From: Coprinellus micaceus | Taxonomy: Eukaryota; Basidiomycota; Agaricomycetes; Agaricales; Psathyrellaceae | Direction of reading: 5' to 3' | Assembly (NCBI GenBank): GCA_951394405.1 | Contig: OX596337.1 | Coordinates: 3,100,001-3,164,000 of the forward strand | Length of the DNA: 64,000 bases | Shown: positions 19,677 through 54,674 of the stretch, one piece after another | How positions within the stretch are numbered: the first letter of the stretch is position 1 | How the letters are laid out: each line of letters starts with the position of its first letter | Notes under the pieces: model-generated | Told to the model about the DNA's origin: nothing | Seen by the model: the letters and a program-made list of their open reading frames with translations, nothing else | Databases searched by the model: none | Made by a program: the position numbers and the translations under genes

Positions 19677-20904
19677 CTAAACTGCATCCCCTTCAACCTC
19701 CATCTCTATCTCCATCTCATCGCCATCTTGAGTCCAAGCTTCCACACTCTCTCCCATGCTGACATCCTCTTGAGGGGGATGGGTATCTCCCTTCTCTGCC
19801 ACATGCAGTAGTACCTTACGCAGCAAATCCCTCTTGTCCTGCAACAGCCCACGGTGGGATTTGTACTTCGGGATCACATCGTCAACACCCCCTCGCAGTT
19901 GCCATGCATCGAGCTGTTCATCAAGATCGCGCACCCGGAGCCCATCGATGTCGGCAAGGCCCACAAATACAACAGCAGAGAGGCGCTCTTGCCGTTCCTT
20001 TGCCTGTTGCTTTGCTAATGCTTCTTTCTCGCGCTTCATCTCCGCTAGCCGCTTCTCAAACGCCGCTTGCTCTTCCCTCCGTTTCCTTTCCATCCCGCTT
20101 GCATCCCAGCGTCTGGCAACCTTGCGAACATACGTGTAGTCCTCTTCGGTGAACATGGCAGCCATGAAAGCGAGGGTGTTGTTCTTCTCGCAAACGGCGT
20201 GGGCGTTATAGTTGAGTAATGTTGTGGTAGGTTTGGCACGCATCCGAACGCGATAAGCCCCCAGCGCCCCCTCATTAACATCGTTCGTAGCAGGCATCCA
20301 GGCTAAATCGCGTTCCGTGAGGGTGAGGCCGTCGATTGTCCCACCAGGTGCGAATTCTGAAGAGAATCGGACCCAGGTAGTCAGCGCGCCTTGGAAGAAA
20401 GCGGCGGTTGCTGAGGCAAGATAAGGCAAGTTGTCTTCAGCCTGTAGCTTGCGAATGGCGGTTATTGCCTTCTCGTCTTCCCATGGCTTCCCATCCAGTG
20501 TTGCAGCCTGGTAAGTCGCATCCTTGTCCACAAGAAGATCAGGGTCATTGACGAGCTTCTCGCAGAACTCCCTAACGTCTTTGTGGAAGGATCCGAGGTC
20601 GAGCAGGTTAACTTGGGCGTTACCAGACCCTCGGACAACGCGCAGGTATGGGTGGGTGACGGCCTGCGAGTAAAGGACCATCACAGCAAGCTCGGTGAGT
20701 GTTGGCTTGTCTTTGAGTGCGTTGAATAAGTTAAGCTCGATGTTTGTCCACCCGGGGCGGAGTTTTCGAAGTCGGGAGTCGTCCAAAAACGCCTTGTAGA
20801 ACTCGAGGTGCTTGAGAAGCTCGGCGGCGGCTTCTGCATGGCTGTTGAACCGAGTATTACTAGTGTCTGGAAACCGGTGAGTTTCCTTGACTCCGAACGT
20901 CGCT
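19677..20904 (-). pseudogene. C-terminal half of a transposase-like multicopy protein (split gene)
   Basis: Minus-strand frame ending at a stop at 19,677 and open upstream through codons for TFGVKETHRFPDTSNTRF, about 400 aa in all. From memory, I recognise the RFPDTSNTRF block, the ELAVMVLYSQAVTHPYLRVV block, LDGKPWE, and ERDLAWMPATNDVNEGALG as the C-terminal part of a large, uncharacterised Agaricomycete family that behaves like a transposon-derived gene. A Lys/Glu-rich helix and a short SAP-like tail end the protein. There is no start codon: similarity stops abruptly at about 20,904, and an in-frame stop lies just beyond. The missing N-terminal half of the same family is at 53,016-54,674 on the same strand. 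The biochemical function is not established. Confidence 0.7.
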
Positions 20905-20909
20905 GCCAG

Positions 20910-20944
20910 GTGACATCGGGCCGTCTATGGTGGCCCGACATCAC
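20910..20944. repeat. Hairpin at the left insertion boundary
   Basis: Arms 20,910-20,922 and 20,932-20,944 pair at 11 of 13 positions around a 9-base loop (GTGACATCGGGCC against GTGATGTCGGGCC read on the other strand). It sits 5 bp inside the proposed insertion edge, where subterminal hairpins of mobile elements often lie. Confidence 0.45.
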
Positions 20945-22003: not shown

Positions 22004-23372
22004 TTAGTTGGCGTCTTCCCTTCGCTTGGCTGCGCGTTTTTCTTTGATCTTGAAAAGGGCGCTGTTCGCCGGGACTGCCCGCCTCACGTTCGAAAAAGAG
22101 GGGAAAACTTGCCGATTCCACCACAGCATGAGGTCCTTCACTTCGACTTGCTCTTCTGGGTCTTCGAAAAGTTCGAGAACCGAAGTGTAGAACGTCTCCG
22201 AATCCGTCTCCTTGTCGGTACGACAAAAGACGCTTGCCGAGGTTAGAGAGAAACGAAGCTAAGGCGGCTGCTTTAATACCTCAAGTATAACTCAATTTCA
22301 AGGACCTCACCTGGGTTGCGACGTATGCGATAGATGCTGGGGTAACGGACGTCATACCGTGAATTCGAGCGTTGCCGGAGCGGGTCGCCTTGGGGTCATC
22401 GTCGACAGAGCTAGGGGACGTGAAGACGTGCTTGTAAGCCTAGTAACCGGGTCAACGTTAATTGGCGTTGGAGGTGAAGCATTTGGACGCACAGAAACAA
22501 GCAACTTGCTTCGAAACAACCCTTTCCATGGCTCCTCAGGGTCGTATGTTTCATCCCGATAGACGAAGATGGGCCAATGGTTGCCGGGAATGATGAGTTC
22601 CCTATCTTTCAGCTGCCTTCTGGTCCTACGACACCATCATGGATCACATGCACAGGTAGGGAGTGAAATATGCACTCACTCGGGATCCGACCAGTCAATA
22701 CCAGGGGGACAAAGGAGAAACCCTGTCCTCTCGTGGTTGAAGCCTCTGTCCAGCTTGATGTTACGAGCCAGGGCAGGCTTCAGCGACTCCCCATGTGGCA
22801 CGATCCAATCGATGATGATAGACTTAAGGCTCTTAGTATCGTCAGATCGTGCGCTGGAGGCCCCCTTCTGCAACTGAACACAACTTGAGCGGGGGTTGAC
22901 CGGGCGGGGAACAGAACGCACCAAATTTGCAACCTCAAGAATAGTGCCGTCGTCCGCATCTTCTGACAAAAGCCGGTCTTCCAGCCCCGGCACAAGCTTG
23001 AGGAGCTTGCGATATACCCGCTGTTCGCGTCGCTCTCTAGATAGGCATCATGCTCGTCGTATTGTGAAAGCACAGGGTAGAGAATGTACGTACTGTTGAG
23101 TTTCTGGAGCCCCGTCTCCATGAGAACCAAGCCCAGCCAGAAGCAGGGCATGGACATTGGCGAAGGCGAAAACTGATCTACCGAAGTGTCGTCCGTGATG
23201 AATCAGGGGATCAGCTTGGGTCCTGACCGATACAGCAGTGAGAGAGGGAACCTATACAAAGGGGCATCCAAACATACGGGCGCTTACGGGGACCGAGCTC
23301 GAGAGAGGTTCCAGGACGTTTCAAGTTCCTGCCCGACCGCGTAAGTTCCTTGTTACTGCTGGACTCAGCCAT
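22004..23372 (-). CDS. DUF6698-family protein (Agaricomycete expanded family)
   Basis: Six minus-strand exons (23372-23258, 23172-23094, 23036-22680, 22616-22493, 22439-22311, 22258-22004) join in frame to give 352 aa. Family landmarks are AFANVHALLLAGLG near residue 45, YRKLLKLVPGLEDRLL, GASSARSDDTKSLKS with the usual IDWIVP, DRGFNHERTGFLLCPPGIDW, PWKGLFRSKLLVS, then AYKHVFTSPSSVDDDPKATR, IHGMTSVTPASIAYVATQ and a DLMLWWNRQVFP block. DUF6698 proteins occur in large numbers in mushroom genomes, often near transposons, and have no known function. The basic C-terminus (IKEKRAAKRRED) suggests nuclear location. The gene looks complete and is divergent from the zinc-motif gene at 24,056. Confidence 0.8.
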
Positions 23373-24055: not shown

Positions 24056-25453
24056 ATGTCTTCCCCAAATCCCTTCCGACTTCATTCCACACGGACCGAC
24101 GCTGGGTCGTCACCCATGTCTGAGAGGGAGTGCTCGCCTACTACTACGACTACCCTTGTATTCAAGGACATCCCTCGCATCCCTAACATCACCCTTCGTA
24201 GGGGGTCGTACCGAATTACCGTTGGCCCTTACTCGAGGAAGCACGCCTTTGTTACGGGTCACTTGGGCACCCCTTCGACAAAGAATAGGATGACCACCCA
24301 CTACCACAGCCGGGATTTCCGTGACGCCAAGGGTAAGTACTACAACTGGCTCAAGCTCCTGGGTAATCAATTGAATGGCCTTTCCAACGCGTTGTACATA
24401 GATTCGGGGTTTGATCCACTTCAAGTTGGTGAAGGACACCTCATGACCATGAAGAAACCGCTGGAGTTTGCCCCACCCTCTGTAGGGCGCTGTCCCTTTC
24501 AGTCTGGCCCGCGCGTCGCTCCCCACGAAACGAGTACGTATCTGGACCCTTATAAGCCCTTTCTCAATATGATGTGACCCTATCTGACCGTGTTTATTCA
24601 AAGCCGCGCCGGGATTGTCTCTACTCGCGAACCTGATAGCTACCCCAGGAGACATCCCCGGTCAGCTTCCGCCGTTGAAGGCCGCCCGTTCCTTCCGTGA
24701 ATTAGATGACGGGGTTGGCGAATCACCGGATGATATCTCGGACTTCAGTGATTCCGACAAGTCGTTGGAGTACCCCGGTGAGCCAGGGCTGATGGTCCTC
24801 ACGTTTGTTAATTGGGGAAAGGGCTGACATTCCGTTACAGATGCAGGCGGGGAACAAGTCTCCAACTTACCCCAGCTCACCGTCCAGTCTGGTCATAGAG
24901 CGGTTCCGGCTGAGCTGGAGCATGGCAGATATCCATTCTCCAAACACAGGCCCGGTGCATTCAGGACCTTCGTCTCTCCCAAAGGTGAGTTCCATCCTTG
25001 ACGCCATTGTATTTCGCCGTTGCCTCTGGCAAGCCAATTAAAGTAATCATTCCTGACCCGCCCATCGCCGCAGGTCGACCTCTGGATGCATTCTTTCTTC
25101 GCCAAGCTGGTATCCAAATTTACTACCCAACGTCAAGCACCCATCTCTCCAACCCCCGACTCCTTCGCGAGTCCCTCATTTCAACGACGGGTATCACTCT
25201 GGTCGAGTTCGGGAAGATCTACAAGGCCTGCTATGATTGCGGTCGCTATGTCTACGCTGTTCGACCATCCAAACATTCTTGCTATGCTGGCGAGGTTGAT
25301 GTTAAGGGGACCGGATTCTGCTTGTTTTCTTACCTCTATTCAGACAAGTATGGCGGTTTGACTATGCGAGATCTCGAGAAGGTTTATCACGCCTGCGAGA
25401 CCTGTCTTCGCATCTTCCCCTCTGCTCTCTCTCCCTATCATTGCTGCTCTTGA
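24056..25453 (+). CDS. Unknown protein with duplicated C-x2-C-x11-H-x-C zinc-like motif (copy 1)
   Basis: Exons 24056-24533, 24604-24777, 24841-24984 and 25074-25453 join in frame to give 391 aa. The first half has a basic region with RRGSYRITVGPYSRKHAFVTG and a disordered acidic middle. The last 80 residues hold two copies of one pattern: CYDCGRYVYAVRPSKHSC and CETCLRIFPSALSPYHCC. Each is preceded by a short helix starting with LVEFGKIYKA or MRDLEKVYHA. This spacing suits zinc binding. The same double motif ends the protein at 40,477-41,320, so the two are paralogues despite very different N-termini. Function is unknown; nucleic-acid or protein binding is an inference. Confidence 0.72.
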
Positions 25454-25670
25454 TTGAAAACCGTTTGCACTCCTCCGAGGGACGTGTAGCTGGGGCGTTA
25501 CTTTCACCTAAACATACTTTCTTACTTTCTTGTCGTGCACATACAGCGCCATTGCCAATACAGCGATTTCGAATAAATTAGGGAGTGGACAATGTAAAAT
25601 GGCTCGGTGATTACAGAAGGTGGAGACCAGGAACAAGTGACTACAGATTTCGATGAAAGGGATACAAAAA

Positions 25671-26534
25671 CTAGAAATACCGAGGGCCACAGGCCCCCGT
25701 ATGAAACTTGCCCAAGACATCTTTGAATAAGGAAGAAGTGAACGAAGGGAAGCTGTAAAAAGCTCGGCCAAGAGATTGATATGGGCGCATGGTATCGGCA
25801 AGGGGTCTTCGGAATGCGCGTTGACCGGCGCTGTGGAGCATGTATTGAGAAATCTTGAACTCCAGGTGAGACGGGAATCGCACTCCTGGGTTGTGAGAGT
25901 CCCCCGGGCCAAATGAAAGCTGCGTGAGCCTTAACCCGATTGAACCGTTTTCTTTTTCAAGCCTTTGGATCCGCTGCATCAACCCCATGCACTCCGTAAG
26001 CTTCATCCCCAGTTCAACTTCAGATCGCTCGATGTCCGAGTGGACCTCGGAGCGTCGCAACGTCAATTGAATCTGCTCTACATCCACAGCAGTGAAGGGC
26101 TATAGTAGTCCGGGATATGATGGTATCATGATCAGCAAGGGCCCCGGAGACGGGAATGGGAAGCTCACATCCGGAGAAGCAGAGGGGTATATTCCCTTCC
26201 GAGGCTCTTGCCCTGAGGGAGAGTTGCTATCGGAGCACCTTGCTGGGCCGCCACGCTTGATCTCGCGAAAGGCCTCGAGCGAACCTACGTCGTCGCAAAG
26301 TTCGCTCTCACGCGGGAACGCCGGAGGTGATCCGCCGTCCGACGAGGGCTCAGACAGATCGCTTTCAAAGGACTCTTCAGACGAATCGTCGTCGGATGAG
26401 CCCTCGGGCGACATTTCGTCAAAGGTAACTCGGGGGAAAGCGTTGAACTAATTGAGCGTGCCCTAAGTCGATGTTTCTTGAATATTTTTGGGAGGACGTA
26501 CGTTTTGGCAGTGTAAAATGGGATGTCCGAGCAT
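25671..26534 (-). CDS. Unknown Ser/Glu-rich coiled-coil protein
   Basis: Minus-strand exons 26534-26502, 26447-26169 and 26099-25671 join in frame to give 246 aa. A TATA-like TATATAG on the minus strand lies about 60 bp upstream of the ATG. Residues 25-55 are a Ser/Asp/Glu run. Residues 105-150 form a probable coiled coil (VEQIQLTLRRSEVHSDIER, then MGLMQRIQRLEKENGSI). The remainder is basic and aromatic. I recognise no family. It converges on the zinc-motif gene, with stops about 220 bp apart. Confidence 0.55.
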
Positions 26535-29657: not shown

Positions 29658-32600
29658 ATGTCTACAAGTCGCACCATCATCGAAGACGATGACCCCGGAC
29701 CCTTCAACGTCAGCTTGACCTCAGAAGAACTCCTCTGGCTTTGGCAAAATTTGAAGATCATGTCTCTTTCCCCCCAGCCTCCTGAATGCGAGACAGTGAG
29801 CAGGAAATTAGGACATCTTCTCCTAGGAGAAGTAAGTCATCATGCAATCCCCCCTAGGGACCCTTTATTGACGGTGAAACAGGAGCAACCGACGTCAAAT
29901 AGCTCACCGGAGCCCAGTCGCAAACAGCCTCAGCGAAGTGGGAAACGACGTCCTGGAGGGGGTAAGAGCAAGCGGAAGGGGAAAGGAACAGACGCTCGAG
30001 GAGCTCGGGCCCAACCGCTTCAACGCTTTTTCGGCAAGAAGGGTGGGCGGGGCGTAGGTGTTGGTCCAGAGTTGCTCGGTGCTCAGGGCAAAGACGAACG
30101 CGGAGCTGGTGACGGAGGACAGGGCGTCGACGGAGGGCAACAGCATATAATGGCTTCAGGATGCGGATTCAGAGATGGCGGGGACGAAGAGGCGCGGGAC
30201 GTCGAGGGCAAGGGCAAGGGCAAGGGCAAGGGCAAGGGCAAGGGGCCACGAGACGTTGATGGGGAAGGGGCACCGTACGTCGATGGGGAACAGGACGTTG
30301 ACGGGGAGCATGATGTCGACAGGGAACAGGGCGTCGACGGAGGGCAGCCACAGGAAACAAGTTCAGGGCGTGGATTCAGAGATGTCGGGATCGAAGGGGC
30401 ACGGGACGTCGAGGGGGAAAGAGGCGCGCCTCCTGTTGGCCCTGTCACACGAGCCCGAAGCAACCGGTCTGGGCGTCACGATGCACCACAAGCGAGCCTT
30501 GCTGAAAAGCGTCCTCGATCTCAAGTTCCCGAAATCGGGCACGGCAGTCCCTCTGGGACGGACAAACGACCTAGGTTGGTAGGTAAAGTGTCGAATGTGC
30601 AAGAGGCAGGGCCTAGCCGAATCACGCCCAGGTACACCGTAATTCAGAACGGTGCAACGATAGCGGAAGAGCAACCCTTGGAAGCTGCCGCTGAGCGCCT
30701 TCTAGCGGGATTGGTTGCTGTCGCCCGTGATGCGGTTTTGGAGGATGTACAGGGATCCACAGTCGTCTCGAGCGTTCGCTCGGTCTTGAACTCTGTTACT
30801 TCTAGCCCCGACCTTTCACAGGTGAAGCCAAGCGAGGCCGACTCTCGATTCCAATTTCAGTCAATCGTCAACCGAGTTCAGGCCGCCGAGAAGTCCCAAG
30901 CGGTGGCGGAGTTGACGTATTGGACGAATGTGATTCAATTCACCTTCAAATTTGATGGGTACGTCCAGAATTATTTTGAGCATCGATGTCTCTCTAACAC
31001 GAAACGGCAGTGAGATGAAGGCCAGACCCGGAGTTACGCCAACAGCTTTGTTGAAGGAAATTCAAGCCCAGCAAGGCAGCAACGTGACGCTATACGCACT
31101 GCGCCGTTATCTAGACAACGGAACGAAGGCATGCGCATTGGCGGGAGCAGGTGAGCCCTATCTCATACGTAGGAAACGCGCTCGCTGAACAGGATCTTCC
31201 AGGATCTATGTACCTCATCGTACTCTTGGCTTGCGCTAGGGTTCGATCTGAAATCCCGCACATCACTGGGGAGCAATTTCTTCGCCTGGCCAGGATGATC
31301 GCCTGCCCATCCCCCTCCGGTGAGCCCGCTTTTCATCGCACCTAAGCAATCCAGCTGACTTCACCCCTCCAGGCAAGGTAGGGAAACTGGTGAGAGAATA
31401 CATCATCCCGGGGATTTGCTTCCTCCGGTCTCGCTATCCTCTTAAACTTTCCGAGCTGTTCCCAGCACCATTTCTCTGGACCTTTGGCTGCCCTTCCGAC
31501 ATATCTTGTGGGGATTTACCGCGTTGTGACATCCTTTTTGACATGATCGCATATCAGTAAGTCGCCGGCATTCATGGACAGGATCATTTGACTCATGGTC
31601 TCTGCCAGCGACTTTGTTAAATCCAGGGACTCTATTGCATGGGCGGCCGGCCTCACCCCCGTCCCATCCAGTCCCGGGCTAAATCTGACCCTGGAGTCAG
31701 GGCCCCCTTTCGAACCACGGGCTCACCTTGCAGGCCCGTCTGCGGCGCAACCCCCTCCGCCACACATGCGTAGGATTTCTACCAACTTTGACCCGGAGTT
31801 GGCGGAAAATAAGAAGGTGAATTACCGACAAGGCGATCACCAGGACGCCTATGAGCACACCGTTAAAGAAAGGGAACTGGCGGAACGAGCGGACGTATGC
31901 AGCAGCATTGACCAGTTTGAACGGTTGGTAAGTGGGGCTTACCACATTAGTTTTTCTGGCAAGCTAACCTGGATAAGTTAAAAGAGAAGCTGGCAAATGG
32001 AACCCGACAGGAGGCGTCTCCCTATACGCGGTTGGACACTGCGCAGCTAAAGGGGGAGACTATCCGCCTCGACGATCTTAATGAGGATTGGTTCCTGATT
32101 GGGATCACCGATATGCCGGACGATATGAGACAGTTCGTCATGGACATCGTGGATTCTACAATGCCAGGGCTTCTACGAGTGGTGGATACGCGACAAGAAG
32201 GCATCGGCAACATCTTTCAGGCCATTCATATCTCCGTCTACAACAGATACGCTCAACACGTATGTAATCTCCCCCGTTCTCATTTGCAATGTTAACGTTG
32301 GCGTGTTAGGCTCAAGAAGGTGCTCCGATGGGTGTTGACGTCGCAAGTATTCGCAAGGCTGGTAAAGCGTACGTTAATAGCTGCCTCAATGTGCCCCGAG
32401 GAAGTCAGGAGAGTCAAGAAAGCCCCGCAGAACGCGATGCCATCCTGAATCGACTGGGTTCTTTTCTCAACTGGGTATCGGAACGGGTAGGTACATCCTT
32501 GCTCGACCCGATTTACCTCGCTGATTGCGAATGTCCTAGGTGCAAGCAACGTTGCCCGAGGATTGCGAAATCATCTCCGGGTTCGTCGATTGCTTGCCAG

Positions 32601-32932
32601 GCAATCATGCCGTTCCGTGTTACCCTTTCCCTGGGCTCGTCATCAACTTCAACGTTGCGACTCGCTTGCATAAGGACAAGAACGACGGGAACTTTTGTGT
32701 TTCGGTCGCATTTTGCATTGGGCAAGGGGGCGAGCTTTGTCTCAAGGAACCGGGCATTGTGTGCCACTCCCGCCCCGGGGATGTATTCGCTTTCAGAAGC
32801 AGCCGAACTAGTCATTTTAACTTGGACTATGTAGGTAAACGGATTTCCTTCGTGTTCCACACGGAACGCACTGGGGACTTGTGGGCTGACAATAGGAACG
32901 GCTGGAGCTCCCATCGCGACATGCGACAGTAG
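29658..32932 (+). CDS. TET/JBP-like 2-oxoglutarate/Fe(II) dioxygenase
   Basis: Eight exons (29658-30958, 31011-31150, 31203-31319, 31373-31556, 31609-31927, 31978-32259, 32310-32486, 32540-32932) join in frame to 970 aa. The first 300 residues are disordered and basic, with a Gly-Lys run and degenerate DVDGEQ repeats. The middle is a helical region of unknown fold. The last 130 residues form a double-stranded beta-helix dioxygenase. The HxD motif is RLHKDKND (His884, Asp886), then GGELCLKEPG, PGDVFAFRSSRTSHFN with distal His932, and GKRISFVF with the 2-oxoglutarate-binding Arg941. This H-x-D-x-x-D, GGEL and GD-FRS-HFN series matches the fungal TET/JBP family, known to oxidise 5-methylcytosine or thymine in DNA and often carried with KDZ transposons. 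The substrate of this protein is an inference. All catalytic residues are present. Confidence 0.78.
30207..30242 (+). repeat. Hexanucleotide GGCAAG x6
   Basis: Six perfect tandem copies inside the dioxygenase gene encode an alternating Gly-Lys run. The array is in-frame and could vary in length between strains. Confidence 0.85.
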
Positions 32933-33845: not shown

Positions 33846-36827
33846 CTCTTGCCAACGGGTCATCCTTACGGACCATCCAGTGGCACGATAGACGACCTTT
33901 TCCACAACATCCATTCAAGCACGCTCACGACCGACCTCAACTTTAAGCTCCCCAAGCCCTGGAGTCTTCGATTTTCGTCAAGCGACGTCCCCATCCCTCA
34001 CGACATACCTGAACCATCCATTTCGGATGTTGAGGTATGCATTGCCCCTGTTCTCCTTTGCCCACAACAAACTGACTGGCCCCTGACAGTCTTTGTACGG
34101 AAATCGCCTAGATAGCTCTTCAAACCAGCCGGTAAGTATGGTTACTCGCGCCGCCTAGGACGGAGGCTAATAGTGGGTCTGCTGTCTTCATGCTAGGTGC
34201 TCAACGTACACGCACGGCTACCGGACACATCGAGTACCTCGTTCACCCTTCACCGTGTTTCTTCCCAGGGCCCAGATGCATCTGCTTCCCTCCCTCTTCC
34301 CAGCGGCGTCCCTTCCGTCGACGTGCACCAGGGCGAATCAGCACCCTTGCCGAACGTGCAGGAGTTATCCCCCACCCTCGGTTCCAATCATCTCGGCAAG
34401 ATGCTCAAGTTCCACGCCGACTTCGACGATGAGTGCAAGCGGCTGTTAGAAGAGGCCATTCGGTCATGCTCTCTGGAGGGCGACCAGCTGAAGGCGTTTA
34501 TCGCACTAGCGCGAGAATTCTACGAGGAAGCCCGGCTGAAGAATACCCGACAAGCTTTCGACCTCATTCATAGAGCTCTCATGGGTTCCATCCTGCTGAG
34601 CGGCGACCCTCGGTACGGGCCATTGACGGCCGAACTGCATTTAGCTCACTACCATCGCTCTCGGGAAGTCTGCGTCCTCCTCGCCAAGGCCATCGACGTG
34701 GATGTAGAAGTCGTCACAGCGCTCGTACTTCAAGACCAGTTTCAATGGGCAGCCTGCCCCGACGCAAAGCTACAAGCTGCTTACCTGAGAATCGTCGACC
34801 CATCTGCGCGCGAGGTGCGTTTTTAGATGGTTCGTTTGTGCCCCACTCATGCCATATATGTATAGGCAGCTCAGTTATACGAAGATACCCTCACGGAGCT
34901 GATGCACTTTTGCCGAGTGCAAGTATCCTCCAAGCCCAACCTTGCTCCCGACATCGCCAGGAGTTTTCCTCTGCGAGGGCCGACAGAGACTGTCGTAGAG
35001 AGTCACGCTCGGTTTGGCACTCTCTTGCATTCGGTGGAGACCGTAGAAATCCAGAACGCTAGGCAGAACAACCCCACTTTCGGTGGGCTTGAGTACAACG
35101 AAGTCGGTTCCCCTCATCTTTGATGAACGATTCTATATGCTTAACGAATATCATCGCTTCCATTAGCCGCCCTGCTTCATCGGTTATTATAAGATGAAAA
35201 ACTCCGTCGAAAAGGGTGATCGTTCTCGGTATCGAATAAGGATGTTCGGACATGGGCTTGTTCTCGGCACGGCCACCAAGGCCTTCGAGATACTTGGACG
35301 TATTTCCCCCTGGGGACTGTACCAGTTTCTCATCGAGGAGAACCAGCTCATCAACAAGGGGAGGACTGGGTCATTCGCCACCGTCACTGCAGTCGCGGCC
35401 TCTGCTGTGAGTGATTTATGCATTGTCTTTCGGTATACTGAATCAAGTCCAAGATTTGTATGGCAATGTTTGATTACAAGGAATTCCTTCGTCTCGTCAA
35501 CCTCCCAGAGAACTGCGGCCGCCCATTGCCCAGGATCAACATGAGCAAAAACGCCCGGCTTCTCCGTGCCGGCAATCTGGACGTATGTCTGCAGATGGTT
35601 GAGTGGCTTAACAGTGGTGGGGTCTCTGGCCAGCGATCAGACGGCAAGACGGAGCTCGTGGAATTCAAGCCGAGCTTGAAGGCCGATAGCGCTTTCAGCA
35701 ACGGCTTTTGCTTCTCCCATGGTCTTGAGGCATTGCGCTCCTCTGAGGAAACCATTGACGACATTATCGAAGATTTCGCTAGCTTGCCCGTCCCGAGCTC
35801 GGTTGCGCGCCTCCCCGATCCCAACGGTGGATTTTCCGGGACCCGGATTGCGTATTATCATGGCCCTCAGGCCGAGGACGACCACTGCGACAGTAAGCTC
35901 CTACGCTGTGCTCTGCTCAACTGTTTTCTGACCGTACATTCGAGGAGATACCCCGGCGTTCCTGATCGCCCACAACAAGGATGTATTTAGTAAGTTCGAC
36001 TGTCATCGTACCGTTATGTGAGTACTCAACTCCGCGTAGACACAGCCGCCAAGGGCACATCCAGGGAGATGGTGAGAAGGGCTCCTCTTGGAAGACCTGA
36101 TCCACCGAGTACGTATCACTAATATTTCTTCAACTGTCGTGTTCTGACCGACAAGTTCTCCTGCATAAAGATACTTTGGCACCAACCCAGATTGCTGGAT
36201 CCTCCAGCCAACCTCAAAGGAGCGCCGTCGCTGCTGGAAAGCAGCGCCAAGCCCCCCCATGTGAGGGTTATCAATGCTTTGTGATACCACTGTACTGACG
36301 GCTCAACGACACTCTCAGCCCATCAACGGGCCTTGGTACCATCCCAGTCTACGCATGCGCGTGGCGTCTCCCAGCAACCCCCTCCCAGCGTTCCTTCGCA
36401 GAGGGCGACTCCCAGCAGCTTCGCCGTGGAGGGCAACTCCCAGCAGCCTCTGGGACAAGGAAGCTCGCGTCCTTCCTATGCCCATGGCAGCTCGCGTCCT
36501 TCCTATGCCCATGGCAGCTCGCGTCCTTCCTATGCCCATGGCAGCCCTCCAGCGCCATTCGTACAGAACATCTCCCGGCGCTCCTTGACGCAGGGCACCT
36601 CTAACATTTCCTACGCCCAGCACCACTCCGCCGTGCAGGGCGTCATACCCCATCCTCACTCTTTCAGTCGGGCGAGCTCGCAGGGCCAGGATGTTCCAAT
36701 GTGGACCACTCTCTCAGATGCATCTCAGGACGAAGAGAGTGAGTATCCGAACAGATCCGGTAGGAAGCGCCCTCGAGTTCAAAGCAGCATGGGACCGCCC
36801 TCTACCAAGCCACCCCGCCAGGGTTAA
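33846..36827 (+). CDS. Unknown multi-exon protein, disordered C-terminus (5' end and one splice unresolved)
   Basis: Supported exons: up to 34034, 34090-34131, 34197-34814, 34866 onward, about 35166-35406, 35448-35892, 35945-35989, 36040-36109, 36171-36260 and 36319-36827. All joins after 35,166 keep frame. The join between 34,866 and 35,166 is unclear: a GT-AG intron at 35,107-35,165 with a CTTAAC branch site fits if one more intron lies before it. The part around 34,390-34,810 is a helical domain (KRLLEEAIRSCSLEGDQLKAF onward). Another globular part is at 35,170-35,890. The end is Ser/Pro/Gln-rich with three exact 9-residue repeats. No ATG was found in the first supported exon. No known family was recognised. 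Confidence 0.5.
36459..36539 (+). repeat. 27-bp tandem repeat x3 (coding, SSRPSYAHG)
   Basis: Three 27-bp units, nearly identical, in the last exon of the gene above; each encodes the same nine residues. A likely site of copy-number variation. Confidence 0.85.
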
Positions 36828-38541: not shown

Positions 38542-39008
38542 ATGCTGTCCCTTTCTGCTCCTCCGACAGTCTTCAGAACACTTGGAGCAACCAAGCCGGC
38601 GAAGGCTAGCCACGATCCTTTCGGCCTATCAACTGCTGGGCGCTGGGCTAATCCGACATTGGTGGGCCCTAACCATTTTATTTCGTGGAGATAAGCTCAA
38701 GTGTCCTGCCTCAGCAGGATACCGTGACTCCTTCTGGAAGAGGATGGAGGCAAAAGCAATTAGCGCGCAAGTGCAGGCGCGATGGAGACTACCAGCCCAC
38801 CTCACCCTTACCACCATCCATATTTCCCCCGGCGGAGGTTTCTCCCGTTTTAGTGCAGCCATATCCCTCCTCAAACTCGAAGCACGTTCGACCGGCCATT
38901 ATTTGCAGGGGCTACAAACGCGAGCGGTTGTTCTTCGCCCATATGTTGGCATTGCTGTTGATCTGCGGACTTATTAGTGTGACTCTCCGAGCATTACTCT
39001 TCTCGTAG
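38542..39008 (+). CDS. Small predicted tail-anchored membrane protein (unknown)
   Basis: Two exons, 38542-38661 and 38715-39008, give 137 aa. The 53-bp intron has a perfect CTAAC branch site and joins in phase 0. Without splicing the frame stops, so this gene is easily missed. The body is basic and Pro/Ser-rich. The last 25 residues (FFAHMLALLLICGLISVTL and a short end) form one hydrophobic helix near the C-terminus, as in tail-anchored proteins. No family was recognised. Confidence 0.55.
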
Positions 39009-39219: not shown

Positions 39220-40074
39220 ATGAAGGAGTTGAACATCCCCCCCGACGCCTCGTTCTTGATAAATCTGCACCAAACAACACAGCTGCTCGAAGCTGCCGGT
39301 GCTCCCTCCACCGACCTCGAAACTCTGCTCCTCTTGATTCAAGTCGGCGCTGTGGTCCAACCTCCCCCGTTGCAGGCAGCTTCCGCTGAACCCCAAGACC
39401 AAACAGCTCGAAGGGGATCTTTAAGGGACGCTAGGAATTCGACCCCCTCTACAGCGACTCCCAATCGTTTGCCGGAAGGCTCTACTTCGGCGAGAAGTGG
39501 TGAACGAACTCAACGCCCGAGGGCCTATACATCAACCAGGGCCGCCCCCACTGTGGCTTCACCCTCACCATTGGTCCAGTCGAGGGACATCCATGGCCTT
39601 CACCAGCACTTTAAAGCATCCTGTTCTCTAGACGGCTCACCAGCCCTGCACGCAGGGAGTTCCCGCGTTCCCGGCCCCAGTCCCCAGCACACTCCTGTGG
39701 GCAATCAAGCGCCCCGGAGCAGGGCGCCCCTTCAGAGGGCTCCTACGCCTCCTATTCCGAGCCCATATGGGGGCACGGAATGGTTTGCCATTGTTGTGGG
39801 TATAAAAGTCGGCGTGGTTTACTCATGGTGAGCGAGGGAAAGGCTCTCAGCGATTCTATTCCCTCACTAATCATTTTGCAACCCCCACAGGACTGCCACC
39901 GCCCCCTATGTTATCGGCTACTCTGGAAATATCTACAAGGGGTACAAGTCCAAGGAGAGGGCCCTTCAGAGGTTCTGGGAGGAATATCCCCAAAATATCA
40001 GGTCTGGAACTGGCATTGTGCTCGGCATTGAGCAGTTCGACCGTCTCACGCCGCGACCTGGCCTGGACAGATAA
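39220..40074 (+). CDS. Viroplasmin/RNase H1 N-terminal-like domain protein
   Basis: Exons 39220-39827 and 39891-40074 give 263 aa. The first 185 residues are a short helical region (MKELNIPPDASFLINLHQ) and a long disordered Pro/Ser/Arg-rich linker. The last 75 residues resemble the viroplasmin-like hybrid-binding domain of RNase H1: EWFAIVVGIKVGVVYSW, PYVIGYSGNIYKGYKSKERA and an LQRFWEEYP helix. That fold binds RNA-DNA hybrids or double-stranded RNA. No RNase H catalytic domain follows. Agaricomycetes have many stand-alone proteins of this kind, of unknown role. Hybrid binding here is an inference from the fold. Confidence 0.65.
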
Positions 40075-40476
40075 CTGCACGTAACCTCTTCGTTCCTATG
40101 TCTTGTCTGTACATATATCCTTTGCTGTCGTAGTTGGTAACGATCTGAACTCATGTACCGTCCCTGTAGTGTATTATTGCTTCTCAATGGACTCTCGGGA
40201 ATGCCGGTTTCTTGAACTCATTGAAGTGGAAGCGTTGAGATTGATCCAGAATGCAACCGGTGTCTACTTGAATGATAACCGAAGGAGATGATTGGCCATA
40301 TCCCTAGTGATTTGAACCTGGGAGAAGTCCCCGAGGGTTGGCTGTATCCAACCCAAGCTACTCGAAGCGCCACTACCCTGAAGCAAGAAAGAAGCACGTA
40401 ACTATGCGACTGTCTCACCCGCCTATCTGAACCATTTATAAGGAGTACTAAATTCGTACGATCTTAGTATTAGCCC

Positions 40477-41320
40477 ATGGTTTCCCTCAGTCCATCGAGC
40501 GATATTGGGAGATTGGGAATGGACGCCTCGCCACTTGTTCCGACCGCCCCGACCACTCCAGAAGGTCATCGGAGTGTGCCTATTGGTAGGGGGCTTCGAC
40601 GTGCCAGCCCTCCTCAGATGCCCTTCTACATGTACCCTAACCCTTATTCCACTCCGGTGCAACCAGATGGCAGCCCAGCGCCTCGGGCCAAAGACGGCCG
40701 TGCTAGCTTGCAAGGTGTGATTGCCCCCTACTTATGCTTTGGAATCTCGATGTCCTCAACGAAAATAGGGAGCCAGAACGATGATAAACCAGGTGCCCAG
40801 CTCTCAAGCCCAGGACTCGGGCACGAAGAGCCGATTGCCGCGTTAGTCAAGCACCGCTCCGCCTTGCGGTACCGTTGTGAGTACCGTAGCACTGGCTGCT
40901 ACGCCGACCATTGAGTTGATGATTCGCGCAGCCGTCGAATTCGATGACGCACATTACAACTCGTGCAAATTAGTCGGCTTCAATCCCAAGACACGCAATT
41001 TATCCCCCCTCAGTATTTTATTCGTTTTGGGTCGCATCTTTGGCCCAGGTATCACGAAGGCCCAGTTCCGACAAATCGTTCGGAAGTGCATCGTCTGCAA
41101 TAACATTTGCTTTGTAGAGAGGCTCCATCTTCACCAGTGCTACGGCACAGTCTTACGTACCATGGCCGACGGGTTCGACTTTGAAGCTATGATGCTCTCT
41201 AACAAGGAGCATGCTGGCTTCAGCCGGTTTGATATCTACCGCCTATTGGAGTTGTGTGCGGACTGCGGCCATATTTGCATGGAAGGAGCGGTTAGCCTCC
41301 ACAACTGCTCCGCCGAGTAG
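40477..41320 (+). CDS. Unknown protein with duplicated C-x2-C-x11-H-x-C zinc-like motif (copy 2)
   Basis: Exons 40477-40714, 40769-40876 and 40932-41320 give 244 aa in frame. Two motifs, CIVCNNICFVERLHLHQC and CADCGHICMEGAVSLHNC, have exactly the spacing of the two in the gene at 24,056-25,453. Each again follows a short helix (AQFRQIVRK, RFDIYRLLEL). The N-terminus is Pro/Ser-rich and disordered and is not shared. A TATA box (TATAAGG, 40,437-40,443) lies only about 40 bp before this ATG, so translation may start at the ATG at 40,519 instead. Probably a zinc-binding paralogue; function unknown. Confidence 0.68.
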
Positions 41321-41737
41321 TCTTAATACCTCCCCCATTGTACTTTATACACTGTCCGTACAACTTTGACATCTTGTTCCTGCTCCACTGTTACTTTCAG
41401 AGTTTTGTCAGTGGGCGCTTAACGCCGTTTCCTGGCAACCCGGGTCCAATATCATTATGCCGTGGGCAAAAGGTCATCACCTGACCGTGACGAGCCGTCG
41501 CTTGTATTTTCTTCCTCCTCCTCCAGCCTCCTGCTCAGACTCGGAGGTTTTATGTCCGTGGTTCCACCAGGCAGGCCAGAGCGTCCCCCAGGCGCCCCGC
41601 TCGCTGCTGTAAGGTTCGTAAGTTTGCGTGATCTCAGGTTGAAAGAGTTGCTGACGTGCCTTCTCATACCCTGTCCAGCTATCGCGCAGGGGTCCCGGAA
41701 TGAATGCCCACGGCAACTGCACCCGGCGCCGACGTTG

Positions 41738-41879
41738 GTGAACAGCTTCACTGGGTTGAATGGCGAGCAGTCCAAGGCGATGGTCGAGCGGGTGCGCATC
41801 TACATGACGGTGAACGGGCGGATTTCGATGGCGGGGCTCAACAGCCACAGCGTCGGGTACGTCGCGGAGGCGGGCGTAG

Positions 41880-41902
<23 letters not shown>
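41738..41902 (+). pseudogene. Captured 3' fragment of an aspartate aminotransferase gene
   Basis: A 50-codon frame reads [18 protein letters not shown] followed by [20 protein letters not shown] and YVAEA. This is the C-terminal part of class I aspartate aminotransferase: the FSFTGL block, then YMxxxGRISxAGLN, which includes the substrate-binding Arg. No start, no lysine site and no upstream part of the enzyme are present within the window. It runs directly into the PRP8 fragment around 41,880, where the two reading frames overlap. Confidence 0.65.
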
Positions 41903-47060
<5,158 letters not shown>

Positions 47061-47302
47061 GATAGACTCGTGCCGAGCTCTTGGATTATATGTTCCTCGT
47101 TCGCTATCACTTATATTTTACTCCGAGCCGTTGATATAAAGCCTTCAGAAAGCATTGAATGCGATATAGTCGATACGAGAGGCCAACTCGTTTCAAACAG
47201 GTTAGTTTGAATTCAAACGGCCGCCAGTCACGGCGATTACTAAGCGCGGTGCGTGACCACAGTTGAAGTCGCGCTCACCCTATTTTGTTCCCTTACCGTC
47301 AC

Positions 47303-47517: not shown

Positions 47518-50500
47518 ATGGGTGAGGTTTATGACCCCGACCTCCCAAATCAGCCCTGGAGTGCCACATGTGTTTGCCGAAAGCAGTTCATGCAGCCTAA
47601 TGCATACGGGCTGCACATCAATCGCTGTCCACAATTCAAGCGCCGGCTTGTCCACGGGCTCGAGGGGGCCCGCCAACGACGCAAATGTGGTACTGGGCTA
47701 AACCAACGGGATCTCTCTCGGCCCGTCGGTGGGGCTCCTTCTCAGCCCATCGATTCAATCTCGTCACGGAGAGCTGGTATGAAAAGAAAACCCGAATGGA
47801 TGGATGATGATAACCTTGACGTCGATATTATTGTGTCTCTACCTTCAGTAAATGGGCACGCCGCAGATTTACAGAGCCCTTCCCATGTACGTGTTTGACT
47901 TTAAAGTTTTTTCTTCACTCTACCAATCTGATGCTCCAGTCGGCCGTTGAACAGGCTCAGGGCACCCTCACTTTGGCTAATAGTACGACGCGTGACGACG
48001 AGGTGCGTTTAGCGAATGCTCTCCGCTGTTGCCTACTGAGAGGAATTTGTCAAAAGGAGGTCCCCCATGGGCTTCACGAGGGCCCCGGTGAACTCGGCAG
48101 AGGCCATCGATCCAAGAAGATGTCCTTCAAAATTCGAGCAAATACCAACTTCCTACCGTCTTCCACCCTTCCTGTTTCCCTGTTTCCATCCGAAGCACTT
48201 CTCCAGCTCCCTTGCTTGCCCAAGCCCTCACAGGCAGTAGCCTCTTCTTCCAAGGATCAAATAGGTGGCAACTTCACCCCGGGACGGTCCCTGAAAGTTC
48301 GAACGATGCGCAACAAATTCGGGTTGTATAAAGTGTTTCCGATGCCCACGTCTGGCGATGCGCCTCATGACCCAGATCAGTCTATCCTCCCCGAGGATTT
48401 ACGAGAGCAACAAACATCGCCGGTTGAGGAGCAAGCCTCAACGGCGGTCCGTCCGCCAAGATCGGAGTTCCATCCTTTCCCAAACCTCAGCTCTTACCGC
48501 CTTGGAGGATGGTTCTGGTCTGACGACACAGAGAAGAGTCAGCAGTCCTTCCAGGATCTGATCAGCATTGTGGGGAGCGAAGACTTCAACCCGGCCGATA
48601 TTCGAGCTGCAAGCTGGAGCCAAATTGATCGAGACCTGGCGAGCTCCCACCACGACGCTGACGACCTGGATTCAAAGGAGTGGGTGGACGATGGCATATC
48701 TTGGAAGCGCATCCCAGTCACAGTCGTTGTTCCATTCAGCAAGAACACGGCAAATCCGGGCGATCATCTGTTCACTGTTGAAGGGTTCCACTACAGACCC
48801 TTGACGTCCATGATTAGGGAAAGGCTGGAGTCCTCTGCAAGCCGCGAGTACTTTCACACCTTGGGCCACGAACTTCGCTGGAACCCGGGTCCTGGAAAGG
48901 AACATGTCCGTGTCCATGGGGAGATGTATCACTCGCCTGCATTTTTGCAGGCATACGAGGAACTTCAGGTGAGTCGGAAGAGCCACCTCACAGAGCATGT
49001 CACTGATAGTTGCCCTCTTTAGAACTCTCCCCCCGAACCCAAGTGCGATCGTCCCCGGCATATCGTAGGGCTCATGTTTGCTTCAGACGCTACCATGCTC
49101 GCTTCTTTCGGCACAGCCAAAGTGTGGCCCCTATACATGTTCTACGCCAATGATTCCAAGTACAAGAGGGCCAAACCGACAGAGAAGCTGTTTGAAACGG
49201 TAGCCTTCTTTGAAAAGGTGATGTCAAGCTCCTTATTCATCGTTCATGACACTGACATTGACTCTTTCGAAAGCTACCCGACAATTTCAAGGATTTTCTC
49301 ATTAAAGTATCCGGGAAATCCACCATTAACCCGGCTCTCTTGACCCATTGTCAGAGAGAATTCTTCCACGAACAATGGCGATGCATTCTAGACGCCGATT
49401 TTATTGAGGCGTATTGCCATGGGATCCTAGTGACATGTTACGATGGGGAGAAACGTCGTTTCTATCCCCGGATCTTTACTTACTCGGCTGACTATCCGGA
49501 GAAAATCCTTTTGGCCAGCATTAAGAACTTGGGGGCCTTTCCCTGTCCCCGCTGCAACGTCCCCATGCCAAATGTCCCAGCTATGGGGAAGAAGCGCGAC
49601 CGTGCTAATCGAATCCGGACCGCGCGACTCGACAATGATGGACATCGGGAGCGGGTCTCAGCTGCGAGGCGATTGATATACGAGGGTCATAACCCTGTTA
49701 CATCTACACTACTTCAAGGGCATCTAGGGGAAGGGTCACTGGTACCAACCAAGGTATGTTCAATTCCCCTCTGTCCATATCAAACACTTGACAAAGGGAC
49801 CCAGAACGCATTCTCTGACAAGTTGTCTTCCCATGGCTTCAACTTATTCAGTATGCTGGTCGTTGACGTCATGCACGAGGTAGAACTCGGCGTGTGGAAG
49901 GCTGTTTTTATTCAGCTTTTGCGGCTGATGGAATCCACAGACAAAGGGGCCATCAACAAGCTGGATGAACGGTCAGTGGCTCGCCCATTCCAATTCTTCA
50001 ATACAGCGTACTCTGACACGTCGTCCTTGGTACCAGGTTTCGCAGTATGCCCACATTCGGCAAGGACACAATTCGTCGTTTCACCAACAACATCAGTGAA
50101 ATGAAGCAACTGGCTGCCCGAGATTTTGAAGATCTCTTGCAGGTGCGTACTAGTCTTAGATCTGACATGCTCTTAATCTGAAAATCAGGGACAGTGTGCC
50201 ATACCCGCTTTTGAAGGCTTACTACCTGCCCCGCATGACGGCAACATTATGAACCTGTTATTCATCTTTGCTCAATGGCATGGCTTGGCCAAGCTCCGGC
50301 TTCATACTGATCACACCCTCGCTATGCTGGATACCCTTACCACCGAGCTCGGGGACACCCTCAGGCGGTTTGTGGTGAAGACATGCTCGGTAATCGCCAC
50401 CAAGGAGTTGAACCGCGAGTACCAAGCCCGCAAGCGGAGGGAAGCACGACAGAAAAGCAAGAAAGCAACTCAGGGAAAGCAAGGGCCACCACAAAAGCGG

Positions 50501-52248
50501 CAAAAAATAGCAGAAGATAATCCACAAGCATCTTCGAACCCAACCAGTGAGTAAAGCTAACCGTTAGGTTTGTGTTTTTGGGAGGCTGACGACTGGCATT
50601 TTGAAAAGACGGAGAGCCAGATGACGCTGAGCGCAAGGCGAAAACCTTGAACCTCAACACGTACAAATTCCATGCCCTAGGTGACGTTGTATCCACAATA
50701 CGGCAATTCGGGACGACAGACTCATATTCAACCCAAATGGTAAGTTCCTTGCCTGCTCTGATGGACGTGTACGCTGAGCTGACCACCTGATAATACAGCC
50801 AGAGCGCTTTCACCGGTACCCCAAGATGCACTACAAACGAACAAGCAAGAAAAATGTCAACACTCAGCTGTCACGAATCCAAATGCGACAAGCCCGAATT
50901 CGCAAGCTGCGCAAGCAGCTCATCCCTGACCCTGAGGAGGGATACATAGACGAGGATGCGCAGAGTCGCCCATACTTTATCGGGAAGTCACAGAACTGCC
51001 CCATCAACCTGCCTAGCCTCTTGCAGCCTAACAGACGAGATCCTGCCACGAAGGTAACGTTCACGACTCCTGGGAACTCCCTTGCTGTGAACTAACCTTC
51101 CAAACATTAACAGGACTTCATGTCGAAGATGAGAAGACACCTTCTTCCCCGGGTATACGAGGTTCTCTTTCAAGAGGCCAAAGCTGTCGCCGACCCGGAC
51201 AGCGCACAAATCCAGCTTCTCGGTTCCTTAATTCACGCCTGCAATGACGTCGAGTTCCTCAAGACCCCAGAGGCGGCTCTGGATGCCGATCAAATCTACT
51301 TCCACTCAGAACGGATTTACGAGCACAACATTTTACATATCAACTTCACCTCCTACGATGTCCGACGGGAGACCGACATCGTGAACCCCAAGACATCGCG
51401 CCAAGATGTGATGTGTCTACGGTGTGTGGATGAAAAGGAACAATCAGACCAGTCCACCAGTCCACCGACGCCTCCCGGGCTGCATCGATTCGTCCATGCC
51501 CGAGTTTTAGGCATCTTCCATACCAATGTCGTGTACCGTGGCAGGGGCTCATCGGACCTCCGCAGGCGGCGATTCGACTTCCTTCTCGTCAGGTGGTTCG
51601 AATTTTTGGAGGATTCCTCAGACCCCAAACGTCTCGATCGTCTCGCCCTATCCCTGGTCAGCGAAGAATCTGCCATTGGATTTTTGGATCCAGCAGACGT
51701 CCTACGAGGGTCTCATATTATCCCGCGCTACTCTCTAGGGCGCCGGCACCCAGAGAGCAATGGGTCCAACTGCTTGTACCCAAGCACACACACTAGCGAT
51801 AGGATAGTCTCAAAGCTAGCACGGGATTGGGAAGACTGGGAGGAATACTACGCTAACCGGTATGTTGCACAGTTGCAGTCTCGCTTCTGCCTTTGCAGTA
51901 TCTTTCATCTCCCTTTACTAATATAACCTTCCCAGCTTCGTCGATAGAGACATGGTCATGCGGTACCTGTGGGGTCACGGAGTCGGGCATCTGTACTCCC
52001 ACTCCGACGCCCCTGACAAACCTCCAGATGACCTTTCAAACAATGGTCAACCCCTTGGGCACTCCCTGGAGGAGCCGGAAGAGGAGGGGATGGAGGGAAT
52101 GTCCCAAGGAGGCTCGGAAGACCATCACGATTCCCTGGAGGACTTGGAAGGGGAGGAGCTGGAAGTTTTTTGTGATTCTGAGAGGGATGACTCAGACCTG
52201 GATCCCCAAGAACCAGAAGACGACACCTATGAGGACGAAAGATGGTGA
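47518..52248 (+). CDS. Plavaka-type (CACTA-like) transposase, apparently complete
   Basis: Multi-exon gene whose parts read through without an obvious lesion. It starts MGEVYDPDLPNQPW with a C2HC-like finger (CVCRKQFMQPNAYGLHINRC). It continues through NKFGLYKVFPMPTSGD, YHSPAFLQAYEELQ, DATMLASFGTAKVWPLYMFY, LLTHCQREFFHEQW, PRIFTYSADYPEKILLASIK with CPRC, VVDVMHEVELGVWKAVFIQL and FGKDTIRRFTNN. It ends with the family's AHL/PRYSLG-like, YYANRFVDRDMVMRYLWGHGVGH block and an acidic tail. Introns identified include 47,888-47,939, 48,968-49,021, 49,219-49,275 and several downstream. Plavaka elements are DDE DNA transposons common in basidiomycetes. Terminal inverted repeats were not found by eye. 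Confidence 0.85.
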
Positions 52249-53015
52249 TACGCATTTAAGACGCGTTCTTCCTATTGGGTGCAGGGCTCTACTCTCCTAT
52301 ACACTCCCCAGTTTGCTAGTAGAAGCCACTATGAACGTCTTTGTTGCAACGCTGTGGTTTATTACAATATTTACATAGCGCCTGATCTTCCCTTTTCCCG
52401 GACTTTTGAAAGCTAGCCAACAGTTCCCCCCGATGTGTTCTCACCGTTGTACTTGGAAATTGAACCAATACAGCGGCGACAGTCATACCGCTTTCTTTCC
52501 TCGAGGAGGGAATTTCCTGGGGACGATTGGATGCCCTCTGAAAGGCTGGGGGATCCCATCAGCGGTGACCCGCCAATGATCTGTCGCCTCTCACTTCAAA
52601 TGTTTGCACATACCCGGCAGTCTGAAATGCGCATGTAAGTGCTGGACCAGGGCGGTAGCACACACCTATCGTGACCCGATCGTATGGTACCATTCTCGGT
52701 CCTCTGACACATGCCCCCATACTGGGGGGTATCGTATCAGCCGCGGCCATCCTGAAATCATCATTGTCCCGCTATTACAGAGATGGCTCATATCTAACAG
52801 GTTTGTATCCGCGGATAACATGTGGACCAGTCCAGTGTCATGCAATTATCATGGCCCGACCGTGGGCTGTCTCCCTTGGCCTTCTGACGCGCCCTCCCCT
52901 CCTGGGAGAGCCTGCTCAGCTGGGAGTCAACAATTATAATCCTTGGCCGCGATCAGATCAGCGGCATCATGAAGGCCATTCTGGGGCATCACCACCTCGA
53001 AAAACCATTGTCGCT
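52249..53015. other. Right end of the insert, no gene recognised
   Basis: A plus-strand frame spans 52,671-53,027, but it has no start context or known motif and crosses the proposed insertion edge, so it is not called. No hairpin or inverted repeat matching the left end was found. Confidence 0.4.
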
Positions 53016-54674
53016 CGATTTTCCTGATGGAATGGTATGCTGATCACCGAATCCCTTCTTGTCGTCTTTGTTGTTCATGAGGGCCCCAGCTAGTGCGGTT
53101 GCCTTGACTCCTCCCCTTGTAGATGCTGCGATTGCGGCCTCTTCCTCTGGTGTAAGGGGTGAATCCTTTCTGCTTGGGTTCAAGGCCTCTCGCACCTTCG
53201 CCGCATTAGCTTTATTGGCGAGTAGGATAGGTGGATCGAGATTTTTCTCCTCCCAGAAGGCGCCCATGGCTGCTGCGCCACCCTTGAAGCTGTTCTGGTC
53301 CTTGTGCATGCAGCACCCAGCCCAGACAAACAGGTCCAACGCAAATCGTGCCTCCTCAGGTAAGCTCTCGTACTCCTCTTTTCCAAGCTCGCGTTTCAAC
53401 CCATCCATGAGCTGCTCTTCGTGCACCGACTGTTCCACCTCTGTCAACCCCTTCCATCGCTCCAGCCCACCCAAGCCATCGATCATCTTAGCCTTTCGCT
53501 CGTTGAGAAAGGCCAGAAGCTCGACAAGGTCCTTCTCAAGCATTCTCTGCTCTCCCAGCTCCATCTCCGTCTCCTTGGTTTTCCAGTCCTTCAAGATGGT
53601 AAACGAAGCCTGTTCTCCGTTCGCATGATCGCTGATCATCCCCTTTAGCTTCAATGCAAATTGTCGAAGGGAGAACGAGGCATTTGACCGCTTTGCGAGA
53701 GGAGAGTCGCTATAAACGTCAAAGACGGCCTCTAGAAGTTGGAGCCACTTATTGGCTGACGTTTTCGCGCTGTGGTCTACGGTGGATGCGACTCGAACTA
53801 GTCGTGTCACAGGAGTTGAGTTGGGGTTCGGGGTCGACTCCCCAATGGCGTAGTTTGGGACACGAACGGTGACGTGGTGAGACTGGTAGTTTATACTGCG
53901 ATTTGACGTGCTATCCTGGCTGATTGTGATGCCCTCGTTCAACCGCAGCTCGTGCCCCAACTGCATGTCCGCAGCGGCTAGTGCTTCAAGTACACAGCGC
54001 TGAACGGTACGTCGTGACATGGCGCGTGTAATGTTGACCCCAAATGAAGCAGCAATACGGATGATGAGAGGGCCGATTTTCGAGGGTGCACATCCAGATT
54101 TATGCAAGTGTCGTGCAAGGTCCCGGGTCTGGGCGTTGTACGTGGTTGCGTGGCCTTTCTGAGTGAGAGATGCACGATTCCTGAGGGATTTCTTGGAGCT
54201 GCGGGTAGACGTGCAGTGTGCGGAAGCTCCGAAGCGGATAATACGCTTGTTAAGCGCCCGTATTGATGCCTGGTACCGGACTTTATCTTCAGAAGCTGCG
54301 GCAATGTGCTGGTGCAAACTCTCCATGCGGGCTTGTAGGCTAATGTTGGCAGCCTTGAGGTCCACGATGACAGTTTGCTGGTGCTTCAATGTCTTCTCCA
54401 TTTTTTCCTTCATATCCTTCTTCTCTTTCTTCAACCCCTTCACCCTCGCAGCCGCACGCAAGTAACTGCGCCGACTATTCGCCGCCTTCTTTTTCCATTC
54501 CTCGACCTCGGCATTTGTGACTTGTTTTGGTGGAACTGAAGTAGTTGCACGGGGCGCCGGGGGAGGGATGTTCTCTTTATTAGTTCGTCTTCTGCTCTTC
54601 GCAAAATTCGTAGTGTAACTTTCTTCCTTTTTCTTGGAGGCAGGCCTCTTGCCAAAGGGCCGTGGGTGCCCCAT
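53016..54674 (-). pseudogene. N-terminal half of the transposase-like multicopy protein (split gene)
   Basis: Single minus-strand frame from ATG 54,674, about 550 aa. The first 130 residues are basic (nuclear-localisation-like) with a Lys-rich coiled coil. Next come AMSRRTVQRCVLEALAAADM, ISQDSTSNRSINYQSHHV, STVDHSAKTSANKW, a KLKGMISDHANGEQAS block, WAGCCMHKDQNSFKGG, and TRGGVKATALAGALMNNKDDKKGFGDQH. I recognise these as the N-terminal and central part of the family whose C-terminal part lies at 19,677-20,904. Similarity stops just after KKGFGDQH, and the frame then runs into unrelated sequence and stops. A frameshift near 53,035 would be needed to continue in the family's frame. Function not established. 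Confidence 0.7.

Follow-up and report, generated by a model that had tools for sequence, protein, structure and literature searches.

The window, a stretch of 64,000 nucleotides of Coprinellus micaceus (C4:3100001-3164000), was compared with the whole genome assembly of 50.34 Mb in 17 contigs. It holds a small transposon with terminal inverted repeats (TIRs), the gene of which is interrupted by a large insert that we read as a giant Plavaka transposon. The locus is defined by the following features:

19435-55234, minus strand: interrupted TIR transposon, 3,682 bp without the insert, which holds the giant insert (TIR TGGGGGTGGGCAACGCC)
53030-54674, minus strand: N-terminal part of the interrupted transposon gene, 100% (rounded) to C6:1233279-1234923
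19677-20913, minus strand: C-terminal part of the same gene, 100% (rounded) to C6:1232044-1233280
20914-53029, plus strand: giant PlavakaB-like element, 32,116 bp, CATCGGG...CCTGATG (C6 empty site; same ends at three more loci)
20912-20913, no strand: left 2-bp target-site duplication GA (flanking sequence)
53030-53031, no strand: right 2-bp target-site duplication GA (flanking sequence)
47931-52248, plus strand: Plavaka transposase gene at the right end of the element, 9 predicted exons, about 1,270 amino acids (PF18759)

The original prediction, made from the letters of this DNA, took the two half-genes for one gene split by an insertion of about 32 kb, and this was confirmed. The inserted DNA indeed holds a Plavaka gene, a number of multi-exon gene models and one captured piece of host sequence. 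Both halves align best not to different family members but to one uninterrupted copy, C6:1232044-1234923, so that the empty site sought for the joined halves was found within the genome itself. When the window flanks were joined and compared with the C6 element, 3,676 of 3,682 positions were identical and there were no gaps. The C6 element is 3,682 bp long, with inverted ends TGGGGGTGGGCAACGCC and a duplication CTATTGT, and the window copy of the same transposon is bounded outside both ends by a 7-bp duplication, TAAACTG. Because the C6 copy is a matching TIR element and the flanks rejoin gap-free, the gene split by the insert belongs to a transposon, and C6 holds the true empty site. This bears out the proposal that a giant element sits inside another element in a genome of the mushroom type. 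The six differences in 3,682 bp point to a recent insertion, unless gene conversion kept the target copies alike.

The true breaks lie at 20,913/20,914 and 53,029/53,030, about 10-14 bp from the edges first proposed, and the duplication is the 2-bp GA instead of the 6-bp GTCGCT originally named. The GTCGCT at 20,899-20,904 is in the target gene, the one at 53,010-53,015 is inside the element's own end, and the window contains 28 occurrences of GTCGCT when both strands are counted. The insert begins with CATCGGG, and its right end, read inward, is CATCAGG. Searches with the end regions, followed by inspection of fetched flanks, delimited four complete copies with the ends CATC[G/A]GG...CCTGATG:

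20914-53029 of the window: window copy, 32,116 bp, duplication GA
C6:261635-313717: near-identical copy, 52,083 bp including a nested long terminal repeat (LTR) unit, duplication TG
C9:708153-739376: diverged copy, 31,224 bp, duplication TA
C4:2850735-2882374: diverged copy, 31,640 bp, duplication CA

All four duplications are thus different, and the chance of a 2-bp match at all four copies is about 1 in 65,000 if even base use is assumed. The right end is TGATG in every copy, and the left end is CATCA in one and CATCG in three, the window copy among them. An assembly artefact that joined unrelated stretches could appeal to the edges being known from assembled sequence alone, but it is hardly credible when matching ends recur at four loci, each with a duplication of its own, and the flanks rejoin without a gap.

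Across 31,894 aligned bases the C6 and window copies share 98.8% identity, whereas the C9 and C4:2850735 copies show about 64-82% DNA identity in matching stretches and yet are collinear with it. The DUF6698, dioxygenase-like, RMI1-like and Plavaka genes have the same order and orientation in all four copies. This conservation, maintained in two copies that are only about 64-82% identical, makes it quite unlikely that the insert, instead of being a single unit, is made up of independent elements nested in one another together with pieces of host DNA, even though an LTR unit is indeed nested in the C6 copy and the PRP8 fragment of the window copy was a later addition. The larger size of the C6 copy was considered as a bigger cargo variant and rejected, as the extra DNA is mainly the nested unit (C6:270317-289162, 18.85 kb), which has 382-bp direct ends that are 99.5% identical and a duplication AGTTT. 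A strong Plavaka match at C6 276-277 kb lies inside this LTR unit. The C6 copy also differs from the window copy by a small insertion at C6:264256-264485, in which a tRNA-like stretch was seen by eye and which is possibly a short interspersed element (SINE), and by an 8-bp gap in the DUF6698 gene. Further relatives with a matching transposase lie on C2 (near 3,771-3,783 kb) and C12 (near 2,065-2,071 kb) and have a similar right end by eye; the delimited copies are the other four only.

The window transposase matched PF18759 with an E-value of 1.4e-17 (64.3 bits, cut-off 26.3). Among the scored candidates of the protein search, to which the comparison of relatives is limited, the nearest was a Coprinellus micaceus PF18759 protein (67% identity, 83% of the query covered). 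Next came proteins from other Coprinellus and from Ephemerocybe, Candolleomyces and Coprinopsis, a ranking in line with a host from the Psathyrellaceae. A CPRC motif was seen, by eye only, in the translated transposase; the CMCT criterion is C(2)C plus H(3-4)H between the second D and the last E. Published systems are cited here as described in excerpts of the papers named. PlavakaB elements have CATCA..TGATG ends and 2-3 bp duplications and occur in Agaricomycotina (Kojima 2025, PMC12730594). Judged by its transposase domain, right end and 2-bp duplications, the giant element fits a PlavakaB-like assignment; three of the four left ends deviate by one base.

On the strength of its transposase, its duplications and the empty site, we interpret the insert with high confidence as a giant Plavaka transposon (PlavakaB-like, CACTA/EnSpm clade), with 31-33 kb of its own sequence and a stable payload of about ten genes, recently inserted in a small TIR transposon. 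The original prediction had placed the insert in a Starship frame, and that frame had to be given up: the element has short inverted ends and 2-bp duplications, and is probably mobilised by a Plavaka transposase of the CACTA/EnSpm clade. Starships are likewise giant, cargo-bearing fungal elements that move by cut and paste, but they depend on a tyrosine recombinase with a DUF3435 domain (PMC12134995), and eight have been reported in the basidiomycete Tremella fuciformis (PMC13066641). A Starship or another tyrosine-recombinase giant element would fit the size, the cargo and the insertion into another transposon, but we consider it very improbable given the Plavaka transposase, the PlavakaB-type duplications and ends that agree with PlavakaB but for one base at three of the four left ends. 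A search of the genome for DUF3435 returned no match, but 14 control genomes were equally silent, so absence is not established.

Just as improbable is a Helitron that gathered gene fragments. Helitrons have TC...CTRR ends and insert without a target duplication. The left 25 bp of the window insert can fold, by eye, into a CGGGCC/GGCCCG hairpin, and the insert does contain a captured fragment, but the pairing bases are not kept in the left ends of the C9 and C4:2850735 copies, the ends are not of the TC...CTRR type, target duplications flank the element at all four loci, and an open Plavaka gene model is present. For the Plavaka transposon, the element's own transposase would bind the conserved ends. 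By analogy with the Plavaka/CACTA family, this DDE enzyme would then cut at CATC...GATG and move the element by cut and paste, and the ends would be joined to a target cut with a 2-bp stagger.

The target transposon has features of its own. On the uninterrupted C6 copy its protein measures up to 972 amino acids from stop to stop. The two halves in the window gave no Pfam match over cut-off. With its TIRs, 7-bp duplications and Pfam-less protein, this transposon may represent an undescribed transposase family.

Besides the transposase gene, the insert carries the following, from left to right:

22004-23372, minus strand: DUF6698 gene near the left end, 6 predicted exons (PF20414, E 4.3e-83)
24056-25453, plus strand: conserved cargo gene with a Cys-rich C-terminus (dN/dS 0.34 against C9; the ratio is introduced below)
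25671-26414, minus strand: conserved cargo gene (dN/dS 0.22 against C9)
29658-32928, plus strand: tentative TET/JBP-like 2-oxoglutarate dioxygenase gene (PF12851, E 0.0024)
34197-35989, plus strand: conserved cargo gene, exons approximate (match to sister copies)
37225-38048, plus strand: RMI1-like protein with an N-terminal OB fold, last segment placed by eye (PF08585)
38727-38852, plus strand: conserved short coding segment (tblastx to the C9, C4 and C2 copies)
39244-40113, plus strand: RNase H1 N-terminal (Cauli_VI) domain protein, limits approximate (PF01693)
40892-41317, plus strand: conserved Cys/His-rich cargo gene (70-79% amino acid identity to the C9, C4 and C2 copies)
41563-47088, plus strand: captured, broken 5' fragment of host PRP8, introns kept, about 5.5 kb (PF08082/PF08083/PF10597)

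The RMI1-like protein matched PF08585 with an E-value of 9.1e-21 (74.6 bits, cut-off 23) and the solved RMI1 structures 4cgy/3nbi with an E-value of 9.6e-8, and a protein search with it returned two proteins. RMI1 is a double-Holliday-junction dissolution factor. The RNase H1-N-domain protein matched PF01693 with an E-value of 1.7e-6 (28.6 bits, cut-off 21). During the movement or gap repair of 30 kb of DNA, these two proteins might process joint molecules, RNA:DNA hybrids or gaps, a role that we propose with less confidence than the transposase steps.

The last exon of the dioxygenase-like gene shows, by eye, an HxD...H...R pattern when aligned with three proteins of Ephemerocybe angulata (P0123-P0125), the only relatives returned by the protein search. 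These three relatives gave no Pfam family at an E-value of 0.01, and the window protein had no match in NCBIfam; against the PDB its single sequence found nothing and its profile found only a low-complexity match. The contigs of the Ephemerocybe angulata dioxygenase-like protein P0124 and Plavaka protein P0084 are both 417,680 long and are perhaps the same contig. A role in countering silencing has been proposed for transposon-borne TET/JBP genes (PMC12730594); by analogy, and again with less confidence, the dioxygenase-like protein could help the element to escape silencing by DNA methylation.

The PRP8 fragment derives from the host gene at C7:1945190-1939718, and its alignment to that gene has gaps that are not multiples of three. 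It is present in the window and C6 copies, whereas neither the C9 nor the C4:2850735 copy gave a DNA match to it, which makes a later capture at the DNA level probable. It would thus be a passenger that one lineage took up. The ratio of nonsynonymous to synonymous substitution rates (dN/dS) between fragment and host gene is 0.51, a value in keeping with the decay of a copy taken from a highly conserved gene. The fragment is also a mosaic, with a middle part 93.5% identical to the host gene and both ends at about 77-79%, a pattern that would result if the host gene had converted the middle part.

Ratios calculated by the Nei-Gojobori method between the window copy and the old C9 copy, with dS at 1.0-2.2, were low throughout, at rough values of 0.073 for DUF6698, 0.062 for the dioxygenase domain and 0.229 for the N-terminal part of the same gene, 0.128 for the RMI1-like gene, 0.113 for the Cys/His-rich gene, 0.165 for the Plavaka transposase and 0.22-0.34 for three cargo genes without an assigned function. 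This comparison shows that the cargo has been under purifying selection.

The cargo families also lie close to Plavaka across the genome. The PF18759 search returned at least 137 matches in at least 86 clusters, a lower bound as only the best candidates were scored. Proximity was compared with a null of 5,000 circular shifts, in which some contig extents were approximated as the last match plus 50 kb. Of the 11 distinct RMI1-family loci, nine have a listed Plavaka cluster no more than 40 kb away (null mean 1.4), or 10 of 11 when the transposase of the C9 element, found by DNA match only, is counted. The locus left over, C6:2256262, is both the best match to the family and the locus least like the cargo version (34%), and is therefore probably the host's own RMI1. 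For DUF6698, 60 of 79 loci among the matches listed (of 219 in total) lie within 40 kb of Plavaka (null mean 11.3). Single annotated chains that contain both Plavaka and DUF6698 in Coprinellus aureogranulatus and Trametes sanguinea (P0012, P0093) suggest that the two are adjacent in other species, perhaps by way of fused gene models.

Two further sets of loci were noted. At C3:4129177-4168689 and C12:2239292-2278769, Plavaka and RMI1-like matches lie about 39 kb apart in opposite orientation, with identical RMI1-like scores and similar Plavaka scores; the two may be near-identical copies of a second giant family. At C1:638623, C2:584314, C6:3829430 and C13:1606284, Plavaka matches score identically and have a DUF6698 match about 13-14 kb off; a further multi-gene Plavaka family has probably left recent copies at these four loci.

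Several observations weigh against the reading of a mobile unit with a maintained payload. Mobility is read from the copies within a single genome assembly, and the gene models are our own, drawn from the DNA sequence only, those of the window being open by construction. At three of the four loci the left end departs by one base from the published CATCA. The dioxygenase-like protein scored 17.5 bits against PF12851, below the cut-off of 34.9, and its predicted structures reached mean predicted local distance difference test (pLDDT) scores of only 30 and 39. Nineteen of the 79 listed DUF6698 loci are not near a listed Plavaka match. Near-saturated dS between the old copies makes the dN/dS values rough. 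In the C6 copy, the transposase and the dioxygenase-like gene are each broken by 3 premature stops, and a gene without an assigned function by 1. Between the window and C6 copies, the RMI1-like gene has 8 nonsynonymous changes and 1 synonymous change and the ratio for the dioxygenase-like gene is 0.64; these figures come from a later recount, as the first run was distorted by matches beyond exon ends. The RMI1-like changes and the premature stops mean that constraint on the cargo is seen between old copies, not recent ones.

These recent changes in the RMI1-like gene, which look unconstrained, and the PRP8 fragment, which proves that passengers get picked up, favor a real giant transposon with cargo that has no role in its own movement. 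We regard such a roleless cargo as unlikely, if still a serious contender, since dN/dS is low between the old copies and RMI1-like and DUF6698 genes co-locate with Plavaka genome-wide.

Compared with known systems, the giant element resembles PlavakaB in its Plavaka transposase, CATC...GATG ends and 2-bp duplication, and a TET/JBP gene is found in some PlavakaB families, no TET-bearing Plavaka family being placed outside PlavakaB (PMC12730594). It differs from PlavakaB as described there in its size of 31-33 kb, its roughly ten conserved genes, including RMI1-like and RNase H1-N, the CATCG at three of four left ends, and a dioxygenase-like protein with HxD and not the HxE hallmark given for the PE type (PMC12730594). 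Plavaka-flanked giant repeats of up to 50 kb are described in Amoebidium (PMC11244446), and the largest element in a Marasmius oreades library is about 42 kb, its kind not stated in the excerpt (PMC9674265), so giant size alone is not unheard of; unlike the Amoebidium repeats, however, the giant element has multi-exon gene models, a fixed gene order and exact ends. The large En/Spm (CACTA) elements of Chondrus crispus, at 16-20 kb with 4-5 open reading frames (cited in PMC6431247), are also enlarged CACTA-clade elements with extra genes, but they are about half the size, have fewer genes and belong to a red alga. Searches of the open PMC literature turned up no description of the RMI1-like, RNase H1-N, DUF6698 and dioxygenase-like set on Plavaka, nor any mention of DUF6698.

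We read the element as a giant, stably multi-gene variant of the known Plavaka superfamily. Its exact ends and empty site tie a CACTA-clade transposase to a stable mushroom unit of about 32 kb and about ten genes, a size range familiar from Starships, and as recent movement is indicated, its activity should be testable. The unit offers a home for DUF6698, a family without known function, and suggests that a relative of RMI1 travels as transposon cargo. We propose, tentatively and at somewhat less than even odds, that mushroom genomes hold a giant cut-and-paste class with a conserved kit, without which more than 30 kb could not be moved and kept, made up of an RMI1-like dissolvasome factor, an RNA:DNA-hybrid-binding protein, a dioxygenase and DUF6698. 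If this is true, agaricomycetes would have in the giant Plavaka class their own equivalent of Starships, based on another enzyme, and the large DUF6698 and RMI1-like expansions of this genome would be explained as transposon cargo.

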